64,000 nt of DNA. Origin: Clostridia bacterium (lineage in GTDB: Bacteria > Bacillota > Clostridia > Oscillospirales > CAG-272). Positions 51,713-62,313 of the stretch are shown in pieces. The position numbers and the translations under genes were made by a program. The stretch is taken from assembly GCA_017472285.1 (NCBI GenBank), contig JAFUQQ010000050.1, forward strand, positions 1 to 64,000, written 5' to 3'. How positions within the stretch are numbered: the first letter of the stretch is position 1; every line of letters begins with the position of its first letter. The notes beneath the pieces were generated by a model. It saw only the letters and a list, made by a program, of their open reading frames with translations. It was not told the DNA's origin and did not search any database.

Positions 51713-53392
51713 TTATTTTTCCATACCGCAAGGAAATGCCTTCTCAGAAGCCGCCTTGTCGGAGGTGATACTCTGATAAAAACGGTATCCGCCTGAAAAA
51801 TTATATGCATCAAAACCGTTTTGTGTTAAAATTCGAGTTGCAATATAACTGCGAAGTCCACTCTGACACATGACGTAAACAGGCTTCTGCGGATCAAGTT
51901 CATGCAACCGTTCGCGCAGATTGTCCACAGGAATGTGGATAAATCCTTCCGCATGACCGCGTGTATATTCTCCCACCGTGCGCGTATCGAGAAGCGTCAC
52001 GTCGTTTCGCTTACGGAGCATTTCGATATCTTCATAATGAAATTGTTTCATGATGCCGTTTTCAATATTGTCAATGATAAAACCTGCCATATTGACAGGA
52101 TCTTTTGCAGAAGAATAAGGCGGTGCATAAGCAAGATCAAGATCCTGCAATGCATCGGCAGAAAGTCCCGCAAAAATCGCCGTTGCCAATACGTCGATGC
52201 GTTTATCCACGCCATCAGAACCAACGATCTGCGCGCCGAGCAAACGAAGCGTTTTCTTCTCATAAAAAATTTTCATCGTCATCACTTTGGCATCGGGATA
52301 ATATCCCGCGTGTGACGACGGCGAAAGCACGATCTTTTCATAATCAAGCCCTGCCGCTCTTGCGGCTTTTTCGTTCAGACCCGTTGTGGCGACGGTCATA
52401 TCAAAAATTTTGATGACGGATGAACCAAGTGATCCTCTGTAATGATTTTCAAGACCGCAGATATTATCCGCCGCAATCCGTCCCTGTTTGTTTGCGGGAC
52501 CCGCAAGTGTGATGACTGCTTTGTTTTTCGTGATAAAATGCCTGATTTCGACAGCATCGCCAACGGCATAAATATCGGAAACAGAGGTTTCCATTTTATC
52601 ATTGACAGCGATCGCGCCTTTGCTACCAAGCGCAAGTCCCGCTTTTTTCGCAAGCGTATTTTCGGGCGTAACACCGATCGCAAGAATCATCATATCCGTT
52701 TTGATCGGCGACATCCGATCGGTATAAACGGTATTTTTTTGAATATCGGTCACATTCACACCGAAAACGACCTGCACACCGTTCGCGCGGCATTTCGCAT
52801 GAAGAAACGATGCCATATCGCTGTCCAGAATATTTAAAAGCTGACGGCTTCTTTGCAAAATCGTAACGTCGACCCCTTGCATCCGCAGATTTTCCGCAAG
52901 TTCAAGTCCGATAAAACCGCCGCCGATAATCACCGCATTTTTCGGTTGACGTTCTTCCATATATTCACGGATGCGGAACGTATCTTCCACCGTGCGAAGC
53001 GTAAAGAAATATTCCTCTTTCCCCTCCGCATAATCGGGAATCACAGGTCCCGCCCCCGGAGAAAGCAACAGCTTATCGTAACTTTCGCTGAACACCTCTC
53101 CCGTTTGCAAATTTCTGACGGTCACGCTCTTTCTTTCGGGAGAGATATCCGTCACCTCATGGCGCACTCGCGCATCCACGCGGAAACGCCTTCCGAAACT
53201 TTCGGGTGTCTGCAAAGTCAAGTCTTCCTTATCTTCAATCACACCGCCGATATAGTACGGAAGTCCGCAATTCGCATACGAAATATATCCACTCCTCTCA
53301 AAAATAACGATCTCCGCTTTTTCATCAAGTCTTCTGATTCTCGCTGCCGCCGTAGCACCGCCTGCGACACCGCCTATGATGACTATTTTCAT
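51713..53392 (-). CDS. CoA-disulfide reductase-like flavoprotein with rhodanese domain
   Basis: A 559-aa protein. FAD-binding GGVAGGATAAARIRRLDE at 7-24, redox Cys42 in SYANCGLPYYIGG (the single-cysteine active site of CoADR/Npx/Nox enzymes), NAD(P)-binding IIGGGFIGLELAENL (about 152-166), dimer domain, then a rhodanese domain (about 465-559) with the catalytic loop at Cys509 (VMCQSGLR). Such CoADR-rhodanese fusions reduce CoA disulfides, persulfides or polysulfide. AAGGAG is 8 nt before the ATG. The gene follows dfx after 177 bp. Confidence 0.9.
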   Translation of the reverse strand: MKIVIIGGVAGGATAAARIRRLDEKAEIVIFERSGYISYANCGLPYYIGGVIEDKEDLTLQTPESFGRRFRVDARVRHEVTDISPERKSVTVRNLQTGEVFSESYDKLLLSPGAGPVIPDYAEGKEEYFFTLRTVEDTFRIREYMEERQPKNAVIIGGGFIGLELAENLRMQGVDVTILQRSRQLLNILDSDMASFLHAKCRANGVQVVFGVNVTDIQKNTVYTDRMSPIKTDMMILAIGVTPENTLAKKAGLALGSKGAIAVNDKMETSVSDIYAVGDAVEIRHFITKNKAVITLAGPANKQGRIAADNICGLENHYRGSLGSSVIKIFDMTVATTGLNEKAARAAGLDYEKIVLSPSSHAGYYPDAKVMTMKIFYEKKTLRLLGAQIVGSDGVDKRIDVLATAIFAGLSADALQDLDLAYAPPYSSAKDPVNMAGFIIDNIENGIMKQFHYEDIEMLRKRNDVTLLDTRTVGEYTRGHAEGFIHIPVDNLRERLHELDPQKPVYVMCQSGLRSYIATRILTQNGFDAYNFSGGYRFYQSITSDKAASEKAFPCGMEK

Positions 53393-53410
53393 AACATGAT
53401 CTCCTTTCGT

Positions 53411-53475
53411 GTGTAGTTGGGACGCTGCCCTTGAAACTCGCCAAGAGGGATTCCCCCTTGGAACCCGATTATGTG
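53411..53475 (-). repeat. R5 hairpin repeat upstream of the CoADR-like gene
   Basis: On the minus strand CGGGTTCCAAGGGGGAATCC then TCTTGGCGAGTTTCAAGGGC and AGCGTCC, homologous to 58415-58486. CCAAG/CTTGG form the stem. It lies between the start of the CoADR-like gene and a hairpin at 53499-53531. Confidence 0.55.
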
Positions 53476-53498
53476 TGGCTTTTCTTTTATAATGGGGA

Positions 53499-53531
53499 AA
53501 CTCCCCTCATCTGTTATGGGTGAGGGGAGTT
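53499..53531. terminator. Hairpin after the desulfoferrodoxin gene
   Basis: AACTCCCCTCA pairs with TGAGGGGAGTT. T-rich sequence follows on the plus strand only; on the minus strand, where dfx ends at 53570, the U-run is weak, so readthrough into the CoADR-like gene is possible. Confidence 0.5.
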
Positions 53532-53569
53532 GTGTTTTTCACTATGGAAAGTTGCTTTCGGTTGATGGC

Positions 53570-53944
53570 TTAAGCTTTCCAAAGGCTATGGAGATTGCAG
53601 TATGCGTAAACGGCTTCGACTTCATCGCCGGGAGTCAGCGCAAACTGAACGACGGGTTTTTCACCGGGATGCAATGCTTTTCTCTGATTGCCGGCTTTGG
53701 TCTGGAGAGATACCCATTCGATATAATGTTCGGGAATCATCGGGTGTTCCACAGAGCCGACCGTAACGGTTACGATATTATTTTCAACGGTATAAACGGG
53801 GATATGCTTTTCAAGAGAAGCATCTGTCGTACCGGGGATGATCTCTTTCATTTTCTGACCGCAGCACATCAGCGGTACGGGGCTGTCTTTGACGATCGCA
53901 ACGATCTTTTTGCAATGTTCACAAATATAAAATTTCTGTTCCAT
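53570..53944 (-). CDS. dfx: Desulfoferrodoxin (superoxide reductase)
   Basis: A 124-aa two-domain superoxide reductase. The N-terminal desulforedoxin domain has Cys8, Cys11, Cys27 and Cys28; the catalytic domain has Glu45-Lys46 (EKHIP), His47, His67, His73, Cys116 and His119 (CNLHSLW), the four-His one-Cys iron site. It reduces superoxide to peroxide without making oxygen. AAGGAG precedes the ATG, 26 bp after the flavodiiron gene, giving an oxygen-defence pair. Confidence 0.96.
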   Translation of the reverse strand: MEQKFYICEHCKKIVAIVKDSPVPLMCCGQKMKEIIPGTTDASLEKHIPVYTVENNIVTVTVGSVEHPMIPEHYIEWVSLQTKAGNQRKALHPGEKPVVQFALTPGDEVEAVYAYCNLHSLWKA

Positions 53945-53970
53945 GATAAATTCTCCTTGATTATATTTTT

Positions 53971-55272
53971 TTACTGTTCAACGAACATATTCTTTTTCAC
54001 GCCGCAGATGGGGCATCTGTAATCATCGGGAAGGGATTCGCCTTCGTAAACGTAACCGCAAACTTTGCAGGTGAATTTCTTTGTGTTTGCGGGAGCATCT
54101 TCGCAAGTACCGTCAGCGCAGATGCCGGAAAGCTCATTTGCCATATCGGAGAGCTGTTTTTCGCTCTGTTCGTTCAAAGCGGAAAGGATCTTGACGCTTG
54201 TGTTCAGATATGTGAGGTTTTTGCATTTTTCGAGTTTGGTCTTCATGATCTTTGCCGCGAGGGGTGCCCAGCTTCCGTTTTCGATGAAAGCAACGGTACG
54301 GTTCTGGAAGCTTCTTTCAACGAGGTGATCGATAAATTCACGCATGAAGGGGAAGATATCGCCGTTATAAGTCGTCGTTGCGAGAACGAGCTTGCTGTAA
54401 CGGAATGCGTCTGCAACCGCCTCTGCCATATCGGTTCTGGCGAGGTCTTTGACGATGACGTTTTCACCGTTTGCTTTCAGTTGTTCTGCGAGAGCGAGAA
54501 CTGCTTTTTTGGTGTTGCCGTAAACGGAAGTATAAGCGAGAAGGATGCCTTCTTCTTCGGGTGTATAGCTCGACCATTTGTCGTAAAGGTCGATGTAATA
54601 GCCGAGGTTTTCCGTGAGGACGGGGCCGTGGAGGGGGCAGATGATGGCAATATCAAGACCTGCCGCTTTTTTGAGGAGAGCCTGTACCTGTGCGCCGTAT
54701 TTGCCGACGATACCAATATAATAACGTCTTGCTTCGTCAGCCCAAGGTTCGTCAGCGTCGTATGCGCCGAATTTACCGAAGCCGTCAGCGGAGAAAAGGA
54801 CTTTATCAAGGCTGTCGTAAGTTACGATGACTTCGGGCCAATGTACCATGGGAGCGGTTACGAATGTGAGCGTATGTTTGCCGAGAGTGAGAGTAGAACC
54901 TTCACCGACAACGATCTGTCTTTCAGCGAAATCCGTACCGAAGAAGTTTTTCATCATCGTGAACGCTTTTGCGGAAGAAACGATCACCGCTTCGGGATAT
55001 GCGTTCATGAAGTTTACGATATTTGCGGAATGATCGGGTTCCATATGCTGAACGACGAGATAATCAGGCGTTCTGCCTGCGAGAGTGTTTTCGATGTTTG
55101 CGAGCCATTCTGCCGTAAATCCTGCGTCAACGGTATCCATGATGGCAATTTTTTCATCGATGATGGCATAGGAGTTATAAGCCATGCCGTTCGGTACTTT
55201 ATACTGACCTTCAAAAAGGTCAACTTTTCGGTCGTTCACACCGATGTATCTGATATCATTTGTAATTTTCAT
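53971..55272 (-). CDS. Flavodiiron protein with C-terminal rubredoxin domain
   Basis: A 433-aa A-type flavoprotein fused to its electron donor. Metallo-beta-lactamase-like diiron domain (about 1-245) with HMEPDHSAN (HxExDH), VHWPE and CPLHGP; flavodoxin domain (about 250-390) with [12 protein letters not shown] binding FMN and [13 protein letters not shown]; rubredoxin (about 395-433) with [10 protein letters not shown] and CPICGVKK. It reduces O2 to water (or NO to N2O). The built-in rubredoxin removes the need for a separate one. It heads the dfx unit. Confidence 0.95.
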
Positions 55273-55434: not shown

Positions 55435-55463
55435 TTGCAAACTTTTATGATTTATGTTATAAT
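55435..55463 (+). promoter_or_regulatory. Promoter of the GTPase-NYN fusion gene
   Basis: TTGCAA (55435-55440), 17 bp, TATAAT (55458-55463), with TGT before the -10. The 5' leader is short (about 28 nt). Confidence 0.8.
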
Positions 55464-55497
55464 TGTATATAATACACATTCAAAAAAGGCGGTATGC

Positions 55498-58074
55498 ATG
55501 AAAAAGAAAATTACCATTGGCATTTTAGCGCACGTTGACGCAGGCAAAACGACGCTTTCGGAAGCGCTACTTTTTCTTTCGGGCAAGATCAGGGAGCTGG
55601 GACGTGTTGACCATAAAAATACGTATCTGGATACCAACGCATTGGAGCGTGAAAGAGGTATCACTATTTTTTCCAAACAAGCAAGATTTTCGGCAGAAAA
55701 TACGGATTTTATTCTCTTGGATACACCGGGACACGTGGATTTTTCCGCGGAAACGGAACGGACACTCTCTTTGCTTGATTATGCGGTGCTTGTCATCAGC
55801 GCATCGGACGGCGTACAGAATCATACGCGCACACTCTGGCAATTGCTTGCGTTTTATCAGGTGCCGACTTTTATTTTTGTGAATAAAAGCGATATTGCGG
55901 TCAAACGGAAAGAGGATATGATCGCAGAAATCAAAAAATCGCTTTCTCCGCATTGTGTCGCGTTTTATGAATGTGACGGCAAAACGAACTTGGATGAAAG
56001 ACTTGCGGAGATCGATGAAGCCTTTTTAGAAAGTTTTTTTGCGGAAATACCGATCGAAACCGAAGATATTGCGGAAAAGATCAGCGAGCGGAAGCTCTTT
56101 CCTTGTCTTTTCGGCTCGGCACTTCGGATGCAAGGCATTGACTTTTTCTTGGATACGATCGATATGTATACGCAAGCAAGAATTTACGGAGAAGATTTCG
56201 GTGCGAAGGTCTATAAGATATCCCGCTTGCAAGGGGAACGCATGACGTATATGAAGATAACGGGCGGTACGCTTTCCGCGCGTGACGAGCTGATCTACTT
56301 TTCGTCGGACGGCAAAAAATACACAGAAAAGGTTAGCCGAATCCGTTTATATTCGGGCGAGAAATTTGAGCAAGCGGAAACCGTTTCGGCCGGCGAGGTC
56401 TGCGCGGTACTCGGACTTTCCGCAACCTATGCGGGACAGGGACTCGGCATGGAAAGTGATACCTGCAAACCAATTCTTGAGCCTGTTTTATCATATCGGA
56501 TTCTGCTTCCGCATGAATGTGATCCCGTTTTATATTTTCCGAAGCTCAAGGAATTGGAAGAAGAAGACCCTTCCCTACATTTATATTGGAATGAAGAATT
56601 GCGTCAGATCGAGGCGCGTCTGATGGGTGATATCCAAATCGATCTTCTGAAACGGCTGATATCCGAGCGTTTCGGTATCTTCTGCGAATTTGATATGGGG
56701 AAGATATTATATAAAGAAAAGATTGCGGAAAAGACGATCGGTGTCGGACATTTTGAGCCACTGCGTCATTATGCAGAAGTTCAGCTCCTGATGGAACCGC
56801 AACCGAGAGGAACAGGGCTTATTTTTGATACGGATGTTCCCGAAAATACCTTAGATATCAATTGGCAAAGACTGATCCTTTCTCATCTTTATGAAAAAGC
56901 GCACCGAGGCGTGCTGACAGGCGCATTGCTGACGGATACGAAGATCACTTTGGTTGCGGGAAAAGCGCATCTGAAACATACGGAGGGAGGCGATTTCCGC
57001 GAAGCGACCTTCCGTGCGGTACGGCATGGATTGATGAAAGCGGGATGTATCTTACTCGAGCCGTATTACCATTTCCGTTTGGAAGTGCCAAGTATCAGCG
57101 TCGGCAAAGCAATGTCCGATCTGCAAATGCGTTCTGCAGAATTTTCACTCGAGGACGCGGATGAAGAAACAACGGTCATCAACGGACGCGCACCCGTTTC
57201 CTGTCTGCATGATTATACTGCGGAAGTCATTGCTTATACAAGAGGACGAGGCAGACTTTCTCTCGTTTCGGACGGTTATGAAATCTGCCATAATACCGAG
57301 GAGATCGTGGCGGCTGTCGGTTATGATGCCGAAGGTGATCTTGAAAATCCGCCTCATTCCGTATTTTGTGCGCACGGCGCGGGATTTGTCGTGCCGTGGA
57401 ATGAAGTGGACTCCTATAAACATCTGGATGCGGGAGCAAGACTTGCGGAAGCACCCGTTTCCGTGATACCGAAAATGACGGGACTTGCCGCGCGATATCA
57501 ACTCAGCGAAGAAGAAGTGGAAGCGATCATGACGCGTGAATTCGGACCGATCCGCCGCAAGCAATACCGTGAACCGAAGATCATCGATCATGGCAAAGCA
57601 AAAAAATTACCGAAACAAAAAACACAGCTTCCGCAAAAACACATGATTATCATCGATGGTTACAACGTGATCTATTCATGGGATTCTCTCAAAAAACTCG
57701 CAAGTCACAGTCTGGAAGATGCCAGAGATGCCCTGATGGATATTCTTGATAATTATGCAGCATATACAAAAACGGAATTGACTTTGGTGTTTGATGCGTA
57801 TTTGGTCAAAGACGGAATCGGTTCGGATTTTATGCGAAACGGCTACCGCGTAGTCTATACGAAAGAAGACCAGACGGCAGATACTTTTATTGAAATCATG
57901 ATGAATGAATTGGGTCCGAATTATAATATCCGTGTCGTGACGGGTGACAGACTTCTGCAAAATTCCGCAGTCGTTTCGGGAATTCTTCGCATGACGGCAA
58001 AAGAATTTGAAAAAGAGATCGCTGACGTTGCGGGCGAAATTGCGGAGTTTATTCAAAGGCTCAAAAACAACTAA
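55498..58074 (+). CDS. TetM/EF-G-like translation GTPase fused to a YacP/Rae1-type NYN nuclease domain
   Basis: An 858-aa fusion. Residues 1-690 follow EF-G/TetM order: G1 AHVDAGKT (11-18), G2 RGIT (53-56), G3 DTPGH (75-79), G4 NKSD (129-132), domain II, III, IV (FREATFRAVRHGLMKAGCILLEPYYHF) and V. The tip-loop YSPVS of tetracycline protection proteins is not seen. A Lys/Gln-rich linker (about 690-714) leads to a NYN/PIN-like domain (716-858): DGYNVI, FDAY, QTADTFIE and VTGDRLLQ supply the acidic site, as in YacP/Rae1, which cuts mRNA in the ribosomal A site. The start is ATG 55498 with AAGGCGG upstream. The joining of the two parts is in one unbroken frame. Confidence 0.88.
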   Translation: MKKKITIGILAHVDAGKTTLSEALLFLSGKIRELGRVDHKNTYLDTNALERERGITIFSKQARFSAENTDFILLDTPGHVDFSAETERTLSLLDYAVLVISASDGVQNHTRTLWQLLAFYQVPTFIFVNKSDIAVKRKEDMIAEIKKSLSPHCVAFYECDGKTNLDERLAEIDEAFLESFFAEIPIETEDIAEKISERKLFPCLFGSALRMQGIDFFLDTIDMYTQARIYGEDFGAKVYKISRLQGERMTYMKITGGTLSARDELIYFSSDGKKYTEKVSRIRLYSGEKFEQAETVSAGEVCAVLGLSATYAGQGLGMESDTCKPILEPVLSYRILLPHECDPVLYFPKLKELEEEDPSLHLYWNEELRQIEARLMGDIQIDLLKRLISERFGIFCEFDMGKILYKEKIAEKTIGVGHFEPLRHYAEVQLLMEPQPRGTGLIFDTDVPENTLDINWQRLILSHLYEKAHRGVLTGALLTDTKITLVAGKAHLKHTEGGDFREATFRAVRHGLMKAGCILLEPYYHFRLEVPSISVGKAMSDLQMRSAEFSLEDADEETTVINGRAPVSCLHDYTAEVIAYTRGRGRLSLVSDGYEICHNTEEIVAAVGYDAEGDLENPPHSVFCAHGAGFVVPWNEVDSYKHLDAGARLAEAPVSVIPKMTGLAARYQLSEEEVEAIMTREFGPIRRKQYREPKIIDHGKAKKLPKQKTQLPQKHMIIIDGYNVIYSWDSLKKLASHSLEDARDALMDILDNYAAYTKTELTLVFDAYLVKDGIGSDFMRNGYRVVYTKEDQTADTFIEIMMNELGPNYNIRVVTGDRLLQNSAVVSGILRMTAKEFEKEIADVAGEIAEFIQRLKNN

Positions 58075-58090
58075 ATCCGTATATACCTAC

Positions 58091-58165
58091 AAGAGAGCAG
58101 ACCCAAGTCTGCTCTCTCAGTTTGTCGATAAAATCGGTTTCAAAATTTGGCTTCGGCATTTTATA
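58091..58165 (+). terminator. Hairpin with CAGTTTGTCGATAAA tail after the fusion gene
   Basis: GAGAGCAGAC pairs with GTCTGCTCTC around CCAA (58092-58115), then TCAGTTTGTCGATAAAATC and TTTGGCTTCGGCATTTTA. Same two-part motif as at 48737-48810. Confidence 0.55.
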
Positions 58166-60427: not shown

Positions 60428-60552
60428 AAAGCCTCCCTTGTGTAAAGGGAGGTGGCACGGTTTACCGTGTCGGAGGGATTGTCAAAAATGTTTTTCCCTG
60501 AAACAATCCCTCAGTCGCATTCTGCGACAGCTCCCTTTACACAAGGGAGCCT
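60428..60552 (+). repeat. R1 repeat, copy D, in the scaffold operon leader
   Basis: AAAGCCTCCCTTGTGTAAAG begins it; stem GGCACGGTTTACCGTGTC; an inner inverted pair around GGGATTGTC; and it closes with GCTCCCTTTACACAAGGGAG. It lies between pduL and the scaffold gene, so it is either the pduL terminator or a transcribed leader. Confidence 0.7.
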
Positions 60553-60580
60553 GAAAATAAAGCAGAAAAATTTTTATAAT
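60551..60580 (+). promoter_or_regulatory. Possible scaffold operon promoter
   Basis: TATAAT (60575-60580) with CTGAAA (60551-60556) 18 bp upstream, immediately at the edge of the R1 repeat. The -35 is weak. Confidence 0.4.
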
Positions 60581-60598
60581 ATAAAGGAGAACACACCC

Positions 60599-61300
60599 AT
60601 GGCAGAACTCGTATATTCCCATGAAGTCGAATCCATGTGCTGCGTAGCAAAAGGTCCTAACCACGGTCCCGCTCCGCTTCCCGAAGAAGGCAAATGGGTT
60701 CAGGCAAAACAGATCACAGACATTTCCGGTTACACACACGGTATCGGTTGGTGCGCACCCCAGCAGGGCGCTTGCAAACTTTCCCTTAACGTAAAAGACG
60801 GTATCATCGAAGAAGCTCTCGTTGAAACCATCGGTTGCTCCGGTATGACTCACTCCGCAGCTATGGCAGCGGAAATCCTCCCCGGCAAGACCATCCTCGA
60901 AGCTCTCAATACTGACCTTGTTTGCGACGCGATCAACACAGCGATGAGAGAACTCTTCCTCCAGATCGTTTACGGTCGTACACAGTCTGCTTTCTCTGAA
61001 GGCGGTCTTGTTATCGGCGCAGGCATGGAAGACCTCGGTAAAGGCGCACGTTCCATGGTTGGTACCATGTACGGCACAAAGGCAAAAGGCGTTCGTTACC
61101 TCGAAATGACCGAAGGCTACTGCACAAGAATGGCTCTCGATAAAGACGATCAGGTTATCGGTTACGAATTCGTATCCCTCGGCAAGATGACCGACTTCAT
61201 CAAAAAAGGCATGGAACCCAACGAAGCATACGAAAAATCCAAAGGTACATACGGCAGATTTGCGGATGCTGTTCGTTATATCGATCCCAGAAAGCAGTAA
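60599..61300 (+). CDS. NifU/IscU-like Fe-S cluster scaffold protein (GGGtGRT partner)
   Basis: A 233-aa protein whose centre resembles NifU/IscU: GACKLSLNVKDGIIEEALVETIGCSGMTHSAAMAAEI (about 57-93), with Cys59 and Cys80 at places comparable to scaffold ligands, plus Cys14-Cys15 and Cys52. It is longer than IscU (about 130 aa), with a C-terminal extension (GTKAKGVRYLEMTEGYCTRM). The start is ATG 60599 with AAAGGAG upstream; an in-frame extension into the repeat has no support. The gene is followed 14 bp later by its usual neighbour, the GGGtGRT gene. Actual cluster transfer is unproven. Confidence 0.85.
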   Translation: MAELVYSHEVESMCCVAKGPNHGPAPLPEEGKWVQAKQITDISGYTHGIGWCAPQQGACKLSLNVKDGIIEEALVETIGCSGMTHSAAMAAEILPGKTILEALNTDLVCDAINTAMRELFLQIVYGRTQSAFSEGGLVIGAGMEDLGKGARSMVGTMYGTKAKGVRYLEMTEGYCTRMALDKDDQVIGYEFVSLGKMTDFIKKGMEPNEAYEKSKGTYGRFADAVRYIDPRKQ

Positions 61301-61314
61301 GGAGGTAACAAAAC

Positions 61315-62313
61315 ATGGCAAAATTTGAAGGTTATGAAAGACGTGAGGCGAAAATCCTCGCTGTTCTCGCTGAATATGGCATTTCTTCCATCGACGAATG
61401 CAAAGAAATTTGTGATGCAAAGGGTATCGATCCCTATAAGATCGTCGAAGAAACTCAGCCTATCGCATTTGAAAACGCAAAGTGGGCTTACACTGTAGGC
61501 GCTGCTATCGCAATCAAAAAAGGCTGCACCAAAGCTGCTGACGCTGCTGCCGCTATCGGTATCGGTCTTCAGGCTTTCTGTATCCCCGGCTCCGTTGCTG
61601 AAAACCGCAAAGTAGGTCTCGGACACGGTAACCTCGGTAAGATGCTCCTCTCCGAAGAAACAGAATGCTTCTGCTTCCTCGCAGGTCACGAATCCTTCGC
61701 TGCTGCTGAAGGCGCGATCAAGATCGCTCTCAATGCAAACAAAGTTCGTGTGAAACCCCTTCGCGTTATCCTCAACGGTCTTGGCAAAGATGCTGCTATG
61801 ATTATTTCCAGAATCAACGGCTTCACATATGTTCAGACTGCTTTTGATAACAATACAGAAGAAGTTACCGTTGTTAAGGAAACTCCTTACTCCGACGGTC
61901 CTCGTGCAGACGTTAAGTGCTATGGTTCCGATAACGTTCCTGAAGGCGTTGCGATCATGAAGCTCGAAAACGTTGGCGTTTCCATCACAGGTAACTCCAC
62001 CAACCCCACAAGATTCCAGCACCCCGTTGCAGGTACTTACAAAAAATGGGCGATTGAAAACGGCGTAAGCTACTTCTCCGTTGCTTCCGGCGGCGGTACA
62101 GGTCGTACCCTTCACCCCGATAACATGGCTGCCGGTCCTTCCTCTTACGGTATGACCGACACGATGGGCCGTATGCACTCCGACGCGCAGTTCGCTGGTT
62201 CTTCCTCCGTTCCTGCTCACGTTGAAATGATGGGTCTCATCGGCGCAGGTAACAACCCCATGGTTGGTATGACTGTTGCAGTTGCAGTTGCTATCGAAGA
62301 AGCTTCCAAATAA
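61315..62313 (+). CDS. GGGtGRT family protein
   Basis: A 332-aa protein of the family named after its motif GGGTGRT (259-265, in VASGGGTGRTLHPDNMAAGPSSYG). No signal peptide or clear membrane segment. Cys residues fall in SIDECKEICDAKG, AIKKGCTK and ECFCFLAGHE. The Gly-rich loop suggests binding of a nucleotide or anionic ligand, but the function of the family is unknown. AAGGAGG gives an ideal ribosome site. Codon use is as biased as in the preceding scaffold gene, so this operon is probably highly expressed. Confidence 0.9.
   Translation: MAKFEGYERREAKILAVLAEYGISSIDECKEICDAKGIDPYKIVEETQPIAFENAKWAYTVGAAIAIKKGCTKAADAAAAIGIGLQAFCIPGSVAENRKVGLGHGNLGKMLLSEETECFCFLAGHESFAAAEGAIKIALNANKVRVKPLRVILNGLGKDAAMIISRINGFTYVQTAFDNNTEEVTVVKETPYSDGPRADVKCYGSDNVPEGVAIMKLENVGVSITGNSTNPTRFQHPVAGTYKKWAIENGVSYFSVASGGGTGRTLHPDNMAAGPSSYGMTDTMGRMHSDAQFAGSSSVPAHVEMMGLIGAGNNPMVGMTVAVAVAIEEASK

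Follow-up and report, generated by a model that had tools for sequence, protein, structure and literature searches.

The fused gene and its protein

The window studied here is a stretch of 64,000 nucleotides from the genome of a Clostridia bacterium (assembly GCA_017472285.1, contig JAFUQQ010000050.1, positions 1 to 64,000 of the forward strand). It contains a gene for a protein of 858 amino acids (aa) in which a GTPase related to TetM and elongation factor G (EF-G) is followed by a nuclease domain of the NYN type resembling YacP/Rae1. An earlier note, made from the sequence, had described one continuous protein with complete G1–G4 motifs and intact acidic residues in the NYN domain. This description held: an 858-codon frame contains both parts, relatives have the same architecture, and all motifs and acids are present in the window protein. 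The features of the gene are collected in Table 1.

Table 1. Features of the GTPase-NYN fusion gene (positions in the window, residues of the encoded protein)
Feature	Residues	Position	Strand	Basis or remark
Promoter-like TTGCAA-17-TATAAT, TG ahead of second hexamer		55435..55463	+	Consensus match only
Shine-Dalgarno-like AAGGCGG, upstream of ATG		55486..55492	+	Read from sequence
GTPase-NYN fusion coding sequence, 858 aa		55498..58074	+	Single open frame, ATG to TAA
GTP_EFTU domain; G1 AHVDAGKT, G2 T56, G3 DTPGH, G4 NKSD	3-226	55504..56175	+	Pfam, 168 bits
EFG_IV domain	402-515	56701..57042	+	Pfam, above cut-off
Domain IV tip loop I, GVGHFEPLRHY	415-425	56740..56772	+	Partly unlike TetM, unlike EF-G
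Domain IV tip loop III, GKAHLKHTEGGDF	488-500	56959..56997	+	Replaces TetM GLYYSPVSTPADF
EFG_C domain (domain V)	519-599	57052..57294	+	Pfam, above cut-off
C-terminal extension, GYEICHN...SVFCAHGAGF...YKH	593-645	57274..57432	+	Common to unfused siblings
Short conserved helix and REFG in linker	671-683	57508..57546	+	Model and alignment; G683 in 72/72
Flexible tether	686-710	57553..57627	+	pLDDT < 50
NYN_YacP (Rae1-like) nuclease domain; acids D720, D766, D795, D817	717-855	57646..58062	+	Pfam PF05991, 133.4 bits (cut-off 24.6)
10-bp hairpin past stop codon, possible terminator, without clear T run		58093..58116	+	Read from sequence; not flagged by scan

The domain order and fold of EF-G are present in the fusion protein, as judged from Pfam matches together with a predicted structure; domains II and III (EF-G_D2 and EFG_III) scored marginally below their cut-offs. 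Among solved structures, TetO and TetM matched the whole protein best. The NYN part matched just two structure sequences, both of Bacillus subtilis YacP/Rae1 (5mq8 and 5mq9), and its similarity to this protein extended over domain residues 2–139 (74 bits, E = 8 × 10−20). Two other EFG_IV genes occur in the window's genome.

Residues of both active sites were counted in an alignment of 72 fused proteins. D720, D766, and D795 of the NYN domain were found in all 72 and D817 in 71, and all four acids were present in 18 of 18 more diverse fused proteins; the loss that the earlier note had considered was not seen in these proteins. The GTPase residues H12, D14, G16, K17, T18, T56, D75, G78, H79, K130, and D132 were likewise invariant (72/72). 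Exceptions among the counted GTPase positions were the G5 region and N129 of G4, where 44 of the proteins have N, 25 T, and three S (the window protein has N).

In Tet proteins, the tip of domain IV displaces tetracycline, according to the available text of a 2015 survey (Atkinson 2015, PMC4342817). The fusion protein has LKHTEGGDF where TetM has YSPVSTPADF; the absence of a YSPVS-type loop, already remarked on from the sequence, was thus confirmed. TetM, TetO, and TetW carry EVPPNPFW and YSPVSTPADF in the equivalent stretches, and EF-G carries GGKGQYG and HEVDSSEMAF. Among 14 positions compared with TetM/O/W, nine differ and five are alike (H418, E420, P421, D499, and F500). The motifs GHFEPLRHY and H-x-KHTEGGDF are common to fused and unfused proteins of the clade, and H424, H494, and T495 are kept in 52 of 52 clade proteins. 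Since it is unlike the Tet proteins at these nine positions and is retained in both fused and unfused members, the tip is distinct and strongly constrained. We infer that it may sense an A site without tRNA.

The linker between the two parts contains a helix with the invariant G683, flanked by two stretches predicted to be disordered; unfused relatives stop upstream of this helix. Besides G683, E673 (70/72) and R680 (69/72) are conserved, and a sequence pattern of the linker matched 82 of 94 fused and none of 14 unfused proteins. The helix is possibly a docking motif.

The longest open frame, as delimited mechanically, begins at TTG 55414, upstream of ATG 55498, and the promoter-like site lies between these two codons. 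Because this site and a ribosome-binding-like sequence precede the ATG, the latter is the likely start and the longer TTG start is unneeded. Promoter-like sites numbered five in the stretch against a shuffle mean of 6.5, which makes support for this particular site weak.

The fusion gene is a lone gene, with divergent redox genes to its left and, in convergent orientation to its right, genes for a ClpP-like protease and an ABC_trans_CmpB-like protein. On the left (minus strand, 51713–55272) are encoded a rhodanese-tailed pyridine nucleotide-disulphide oxidoreductase, a desulfoferrodoxin, and a flavodiiron-rubredoxin protein, which likely form an oxygen-stress cluster. Elsewhere in the window (60452–62313), a NifU_N-like protein (slightly below cut-off) adjoins a GGGtGRT protein (634.8 bits). 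A scan for anti-phage defense returned none of the PADLOC families, and a defense role was rejected.

Distribution of fused and separate genes

In a protein search, 7981 relatives were scored, and the 120 nearest ones listed (including the window protein) all carried both GTPase and NYN domain. Named relatives among the best 80 of at least 592 loci belonged to the Lachnospiraceae, Oscillospiraceae, and other Clostridia. In addition, 393 genomes of the class were searched with the YacP family and with an alignment of the linker. A genome was counted as fused when a linker match in a frame of 734–1045 aa was accompanied by a YacP match in the genome; G121 and G336 were added to these. In total, 129 of the 393 genomes were fused; among the first 127, the YacP frame was listed for 80 and had the same length as the linker frame in 78. 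In seven further fused genomes, the frame was truncated where a contig ended or broke (G044, G156, G172, G185, G190, G235, and G295). GTPase and YacP occurred apart in 22 genomes (the GTPase frame was listed for nine, the others being judged by their short YacP frame), and YacP without a linker match occurred in 92 (short frame listed for 45, none for 47). Stand-alone YacP frames in the class comprise about 170–216 aa, compared with 858 aa for the fused one. A sequencing error or artefactual joining of two genes, which the earlier note had named as a refuting case, was ruled out, as both parts recur in the 120 nearest relatives and in 129 class genomes.

The 129 fused genomes span 26 family groups, or 27 if cut frames are included. 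In a sample of 398 genomes from the phylum, 34 had a linker match, which was here the sole criterion, in frames of 857–937 aa (28 genomes) or 651–674 aa (six genomes).

Across many Clostridia, the fused gene takes the place of a stand-alone Rae1, and fused genomes almost never keep a full-length separate one. Exactly one YacP match was found in 124 of the 129 fused genomes, and a full-length separate Rae1 in a single genome (G284, with a second frame of 174 aa), as had been predicted. Four genomes (G120, G174, G208, and G370) showed weak, partial second matches; three of these matches covered 47 positions in frames of 163–165 aa and stayed below the cut-off, and G370 contained two small YacP pieces, one of them marginally above it. 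In the window's genome, the fused gene is the one YacP match. YacP was present in 114 of the 257 genomes that were not fused. Both states were found within five family groups (f23, f24, f28, f29, and f48; for f28, the other frame was not listed), so the pattern of fused versus separate genes reflects more than one split.

The unfused siblings are GTPases of about 620–670 aa that have no NYN domain and end at or soon after the extension GYEPCHN...SVFCAHGAGF...YMH. A quick GTPase tree was built from 52 clade members together with TetM, TetO, TetW, and EF-G (L098, whose frame is incomplete, was excluded). A branch with support 100 sets the 14 unfused proteins apart, so that a single change separates the fused and unfused states, and the same tree divides the clade from TetM/O/W with support 94. 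Similarly, a tree of the NYN domains divided 31 fused from 22 stand-alone domains by one change (support 92); it used 22 of 26 stand-alone domains, its fused rows include two pairs from the same genome, and its details are unsure owing to long branches (L083, L084, and the window). The single change on each of the two trees points to one fusion or one loss. In raw genome counts that ignore descent, an unfused GTPase co-occurred with a separate YacP in 22 of 29 genomes, compared with 92 YacP-bearing genomes among the 228 that have no GTPase, which gives a second hint that GTPase and Rae1 act together. One genome (G106) encodes two unfused sibling GTPases plus a separate YacP.

Among 72,556 plasmid records, 56 matched the linker-NYN part and two covered most of it, both being large replicons (of Monoglobus and Agathobacter). 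A mobile resistance context was rejected, given these two records and the position of the window's lone gene among redox and protease genes. A plasmid of Ligilactobacillus salivarius (L207) carries a relative of the GTPase that lacks annotation and appears to be broken.

The ylmH neighbor and quality-control genes

Of 62 loci with a sufficiently long downstream region, 17 carry a YlmH-like frame directly 3′ of the fused gene on the same strand (tblastn). The gaps range from −31 to +93 nucleotides and are counted up to where the matched open frame begins, which need not be a start codon. The count of 17 leaves out three loci (L112, L127, and L145) with a ylmH match in which the GTPase frame was not parsed, and, being drawn from the best 80 of at least 592 loci, it holds for near relatives. 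An initial clustering of neighbors by longest open frames (57 loci), in which ylmH was seen in seven, was unreliable because antisense frames were picked in GC-rich loci.

The assignment to YlmH was examined further. In both neighbors examined, the YlmH_RBD and S4 domains exceeded their Pfam cut-offs, and NCBIfam matches remained below cut-off (best, PS_II_S4). One neighbor was compared with solved structures and matched YlmH (8s1p). In six genomes examined, the adjoining ylmH encodes the sole YlmH. At one locus (L157, 4777–8122), the ylmH ATG lies inside the fused gene, giving an overlap of 17 bases; a rhodanese-like gene precedes the pair and hrcA/grpE-like genes follow it (names assigned by eye), so the setting differs from that of the usual ylm operon. 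YlmH has been reported as a factor of ribosome-associated quality control (RQC) that can replace RqcP (available text of PMC11317155). The adjacency of ylmH lends independent, moderate support to a link between the fusion and ribosome quality control, and a quality-control role suggested in the earlier note received this much backing in one related clade; the window lacks this arrangement.

The window's genome encodes RqcH. SmpB was not found in it by a search whose control was positive in 10 of 14 named genomes, namely the ten bacteria. Likewise, no tmRNA exceeded the cut-off; of six weak matches, the four examined were tRNAs and the other two comprised 17–18 nucleotides. This search can miss a tmRNA, as its control cleared the cut-off in nine of the ten bacteria. 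SmpB and tmRNA genes are often neighbors, and with an assembly that is 96.48% complete in 77 contigs, a gap may account for the absence of both. A survey of 2,031 genomes, as cited in the available text of PMC11633108, recorded no species lacking both. A true loss would be remarkable for a cell equipped with both a GTPase-Rae1 fusion and RQC.

Function and relation to known systems

We favor the reading that the fusion acts as a Rae1 borne by a GTPase and cleaves mRNA in the A site of stalled ribosomes, and on these sequence comparisons we give it about an even chance of being right. The GTPase part would dock on the 70S ribosome at the factor-binding site, as EF-G and Tet proteins do, and the distinct tip of domain IV would recognize not tetracycline but a stalled state in which the A site holds no tRNA. 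The tethered NYN domain would then cut the codon in the A site, the activity ascribed to Rae1 of B. subtilis, and the cut ribosome might be passed on to RQC or trans-translation. The predicted fold fits this reading.

Several observations weigh against it. The NYN domain hangs on a loose tether: stretches 651–658 and 686–710 of the predicted structure have pLDDT values below 50, so that the reach of the NYN domain to the mRNA is putative. Rae1 of B. subtilis works without a fused GTPase. The adjacency of ylmH is confined to one Oscillospiraceae clade, with three changes on the tree. In the window's genome ylmH does not adjoin the fused gene but lies on contig C19, and among the places listed for the 393 class genomes there was no adjacent ylmH, the nearest pair found on the same contig being 16.6 kb apart. 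Furthermore, the GTPase occurs without a YacP match in seven of these genomes and neither part occurs in 136; within the window's order, 12 of 22 genomes (the window's genome being one of the 22) have no YacP match. The fused system is therefore dispensable. The co-occurrence figures, as said, take no account of descent. Finally, a literature search, which left most subscription papers outside, returned neither an experiment on the fusion nor a proposal that it acts in rescue.

Among the alternatives, a regulator of the Rae1 type is the most credible, though unlikely. Here, the protein would cleave at specific codons while translation proceeds normally, thereby adjusting the levels of a few messages, and the GTPase would merely give access; the chemistry would be unchanged, but the function would be gene control instead of rescue. 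The available text of PMC10100781 describes B. subtilis Rae1 as a translation-dependent destabilizer of mRNA. The mutual replacement of fused and separate forms agrees with such a role, as does the lack of a general neighbor gene (at most 10) in the clustering of 57 loci with its unreliable counts. On the other hand, the ylmH neighbor points to quality control, and a dedicated translational GTPase (trGTPase) would seem excessive for a codon-specific nuclease.

We also consider, as a speculative extension that is probably wrong, that the fusion represents a new class of rescue factor. The GTPase would read the stall, the tethered Rae1 would cut the A-site mRNA, and the truncated complex would proceed to alanine tailing by RqcH and YlmH; in the window's organism, where RqcH and YlmH but not SmpB or tmRNA were found, this would be a main rescue road in place of trans-translation.

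A weaker reading than the stalled-ribosome Rae1, and one that we regard as quite unlikely, is that the fusion shields the ribosome from tetracycline or from a different drug acting at the A site and that its RNase contributes a further mechanism. Atkinson 2015 classes such fusions as Tet proteins and, in its available text, suggests resistance involving the RNase (PMC4342817). Among NCBIfam models, tet_protect gave 410 bits, ahead of 321 for Otr(A) and of at most 292 for those of EF-G, yet this is far below its curated cut-off of 775 (NF012153). The five shared tip positions agree with a Tet-like function, and the nine others, the YSPVS stretch included, speak against it. Moreover, the retention of a single old fusion across 26 family groups does not resemble the behavior of a mobile resistance gene. 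Further points against drug protection are that only two plasmid records cover most of the linker-NYN part and that the neighbors scanned in the window are redox, protease, and metabolic genes. A plasmid record of Agathobacter rectalis (L209:3120–5921) names its fused protein as a member of the TetM/TetW/TetO/TetS family; this label is likely misleading and, if wrong, would inflate resistance counts.

A role in ribosome assembly or in rRNA or tRNA maturation, in which the GTPase would bind pre-ribosomes and the NYN domain trim RNA, is very improbable. In its favor, several trGTPases act in assembly. A part for NYN domains in maturing rRNA and tRNA has also been put forward (as cited by PMC4342817). 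Against it stand the action on mRNA in ribosomes reported for the Rae1 family member with data and the 136 class genomes with neither part, which is unlike a core maturation enzyme. We give least credence to two tethered, uncoupled activities (a GTPase that resolves stalls by moving tRNA and a NYN domain that works elsewhere), which the flexible linker and the seven genomes with GTPase and no YacP match would allow, but which the single tree change, the retention of both parts together over many families, and the conserved G683, E673, and R680 oppose.

The GTPase-borne Rae1 offers a concrete and testable model of no-go decay for many gut Clostridia. A fusion that replaces Rae1 joins nuclease and trGTPase in a single polypeptide, and in one clade the ylmH neighbor connects it to RQC. 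A-site cleavage by the fusion, if true, would be a new kind of quality-control step; a review regards the catalog of mRNA nucleases acting on the ribosome as incomplete (available text of PMC12320835).

Contrary to the novelty supposed in the earlier note, the architecture is already in the literature, and trGTPase and Rae1 nuclease are each known. In ten species of Clostridiales, Atkinson 2015 found Tet proteins that carry a YacP domain (PMC4342817); they have the same architecture and are very likely the same family as the window fusion. The available text of that survey gives the domain gain and the resistance idea; it makes no mention of a replaced stand-alone Rae1, of tip loops peculiar to the clade, of siblings lacking the NYN domain, or of a link to ylmH. 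New here are the single change between fused and unfused states, the replacement of Rae1, the unfused siblings accompanied by YacP, the distinct tip, and the ylmH link in one clade.

Compared with B. subtilis Rae1/YacP (5mq8, 5mq9), the NYN domain and its acids are alike, whereas the former is stand-alone and has no GTPase. TetM, TetO, and TetW share the EF-G-like domains and are the nearest solved relatives (about 30% identity), but they have no NYN domain, differ at the tip as described, and group outside the clade. With EF-G, the fusion has in common the fold, the G motifs, and H491 of loop III; it differs in its tip loops, its additional C-terminal extension, and its NYN domain. Finally, Dom34-Hbs1 and no-go factors of the SmrB type follow a similar stall-reading logic with a GTPase or a nuclease, but they are separate proteins with an unrelated nuclease.
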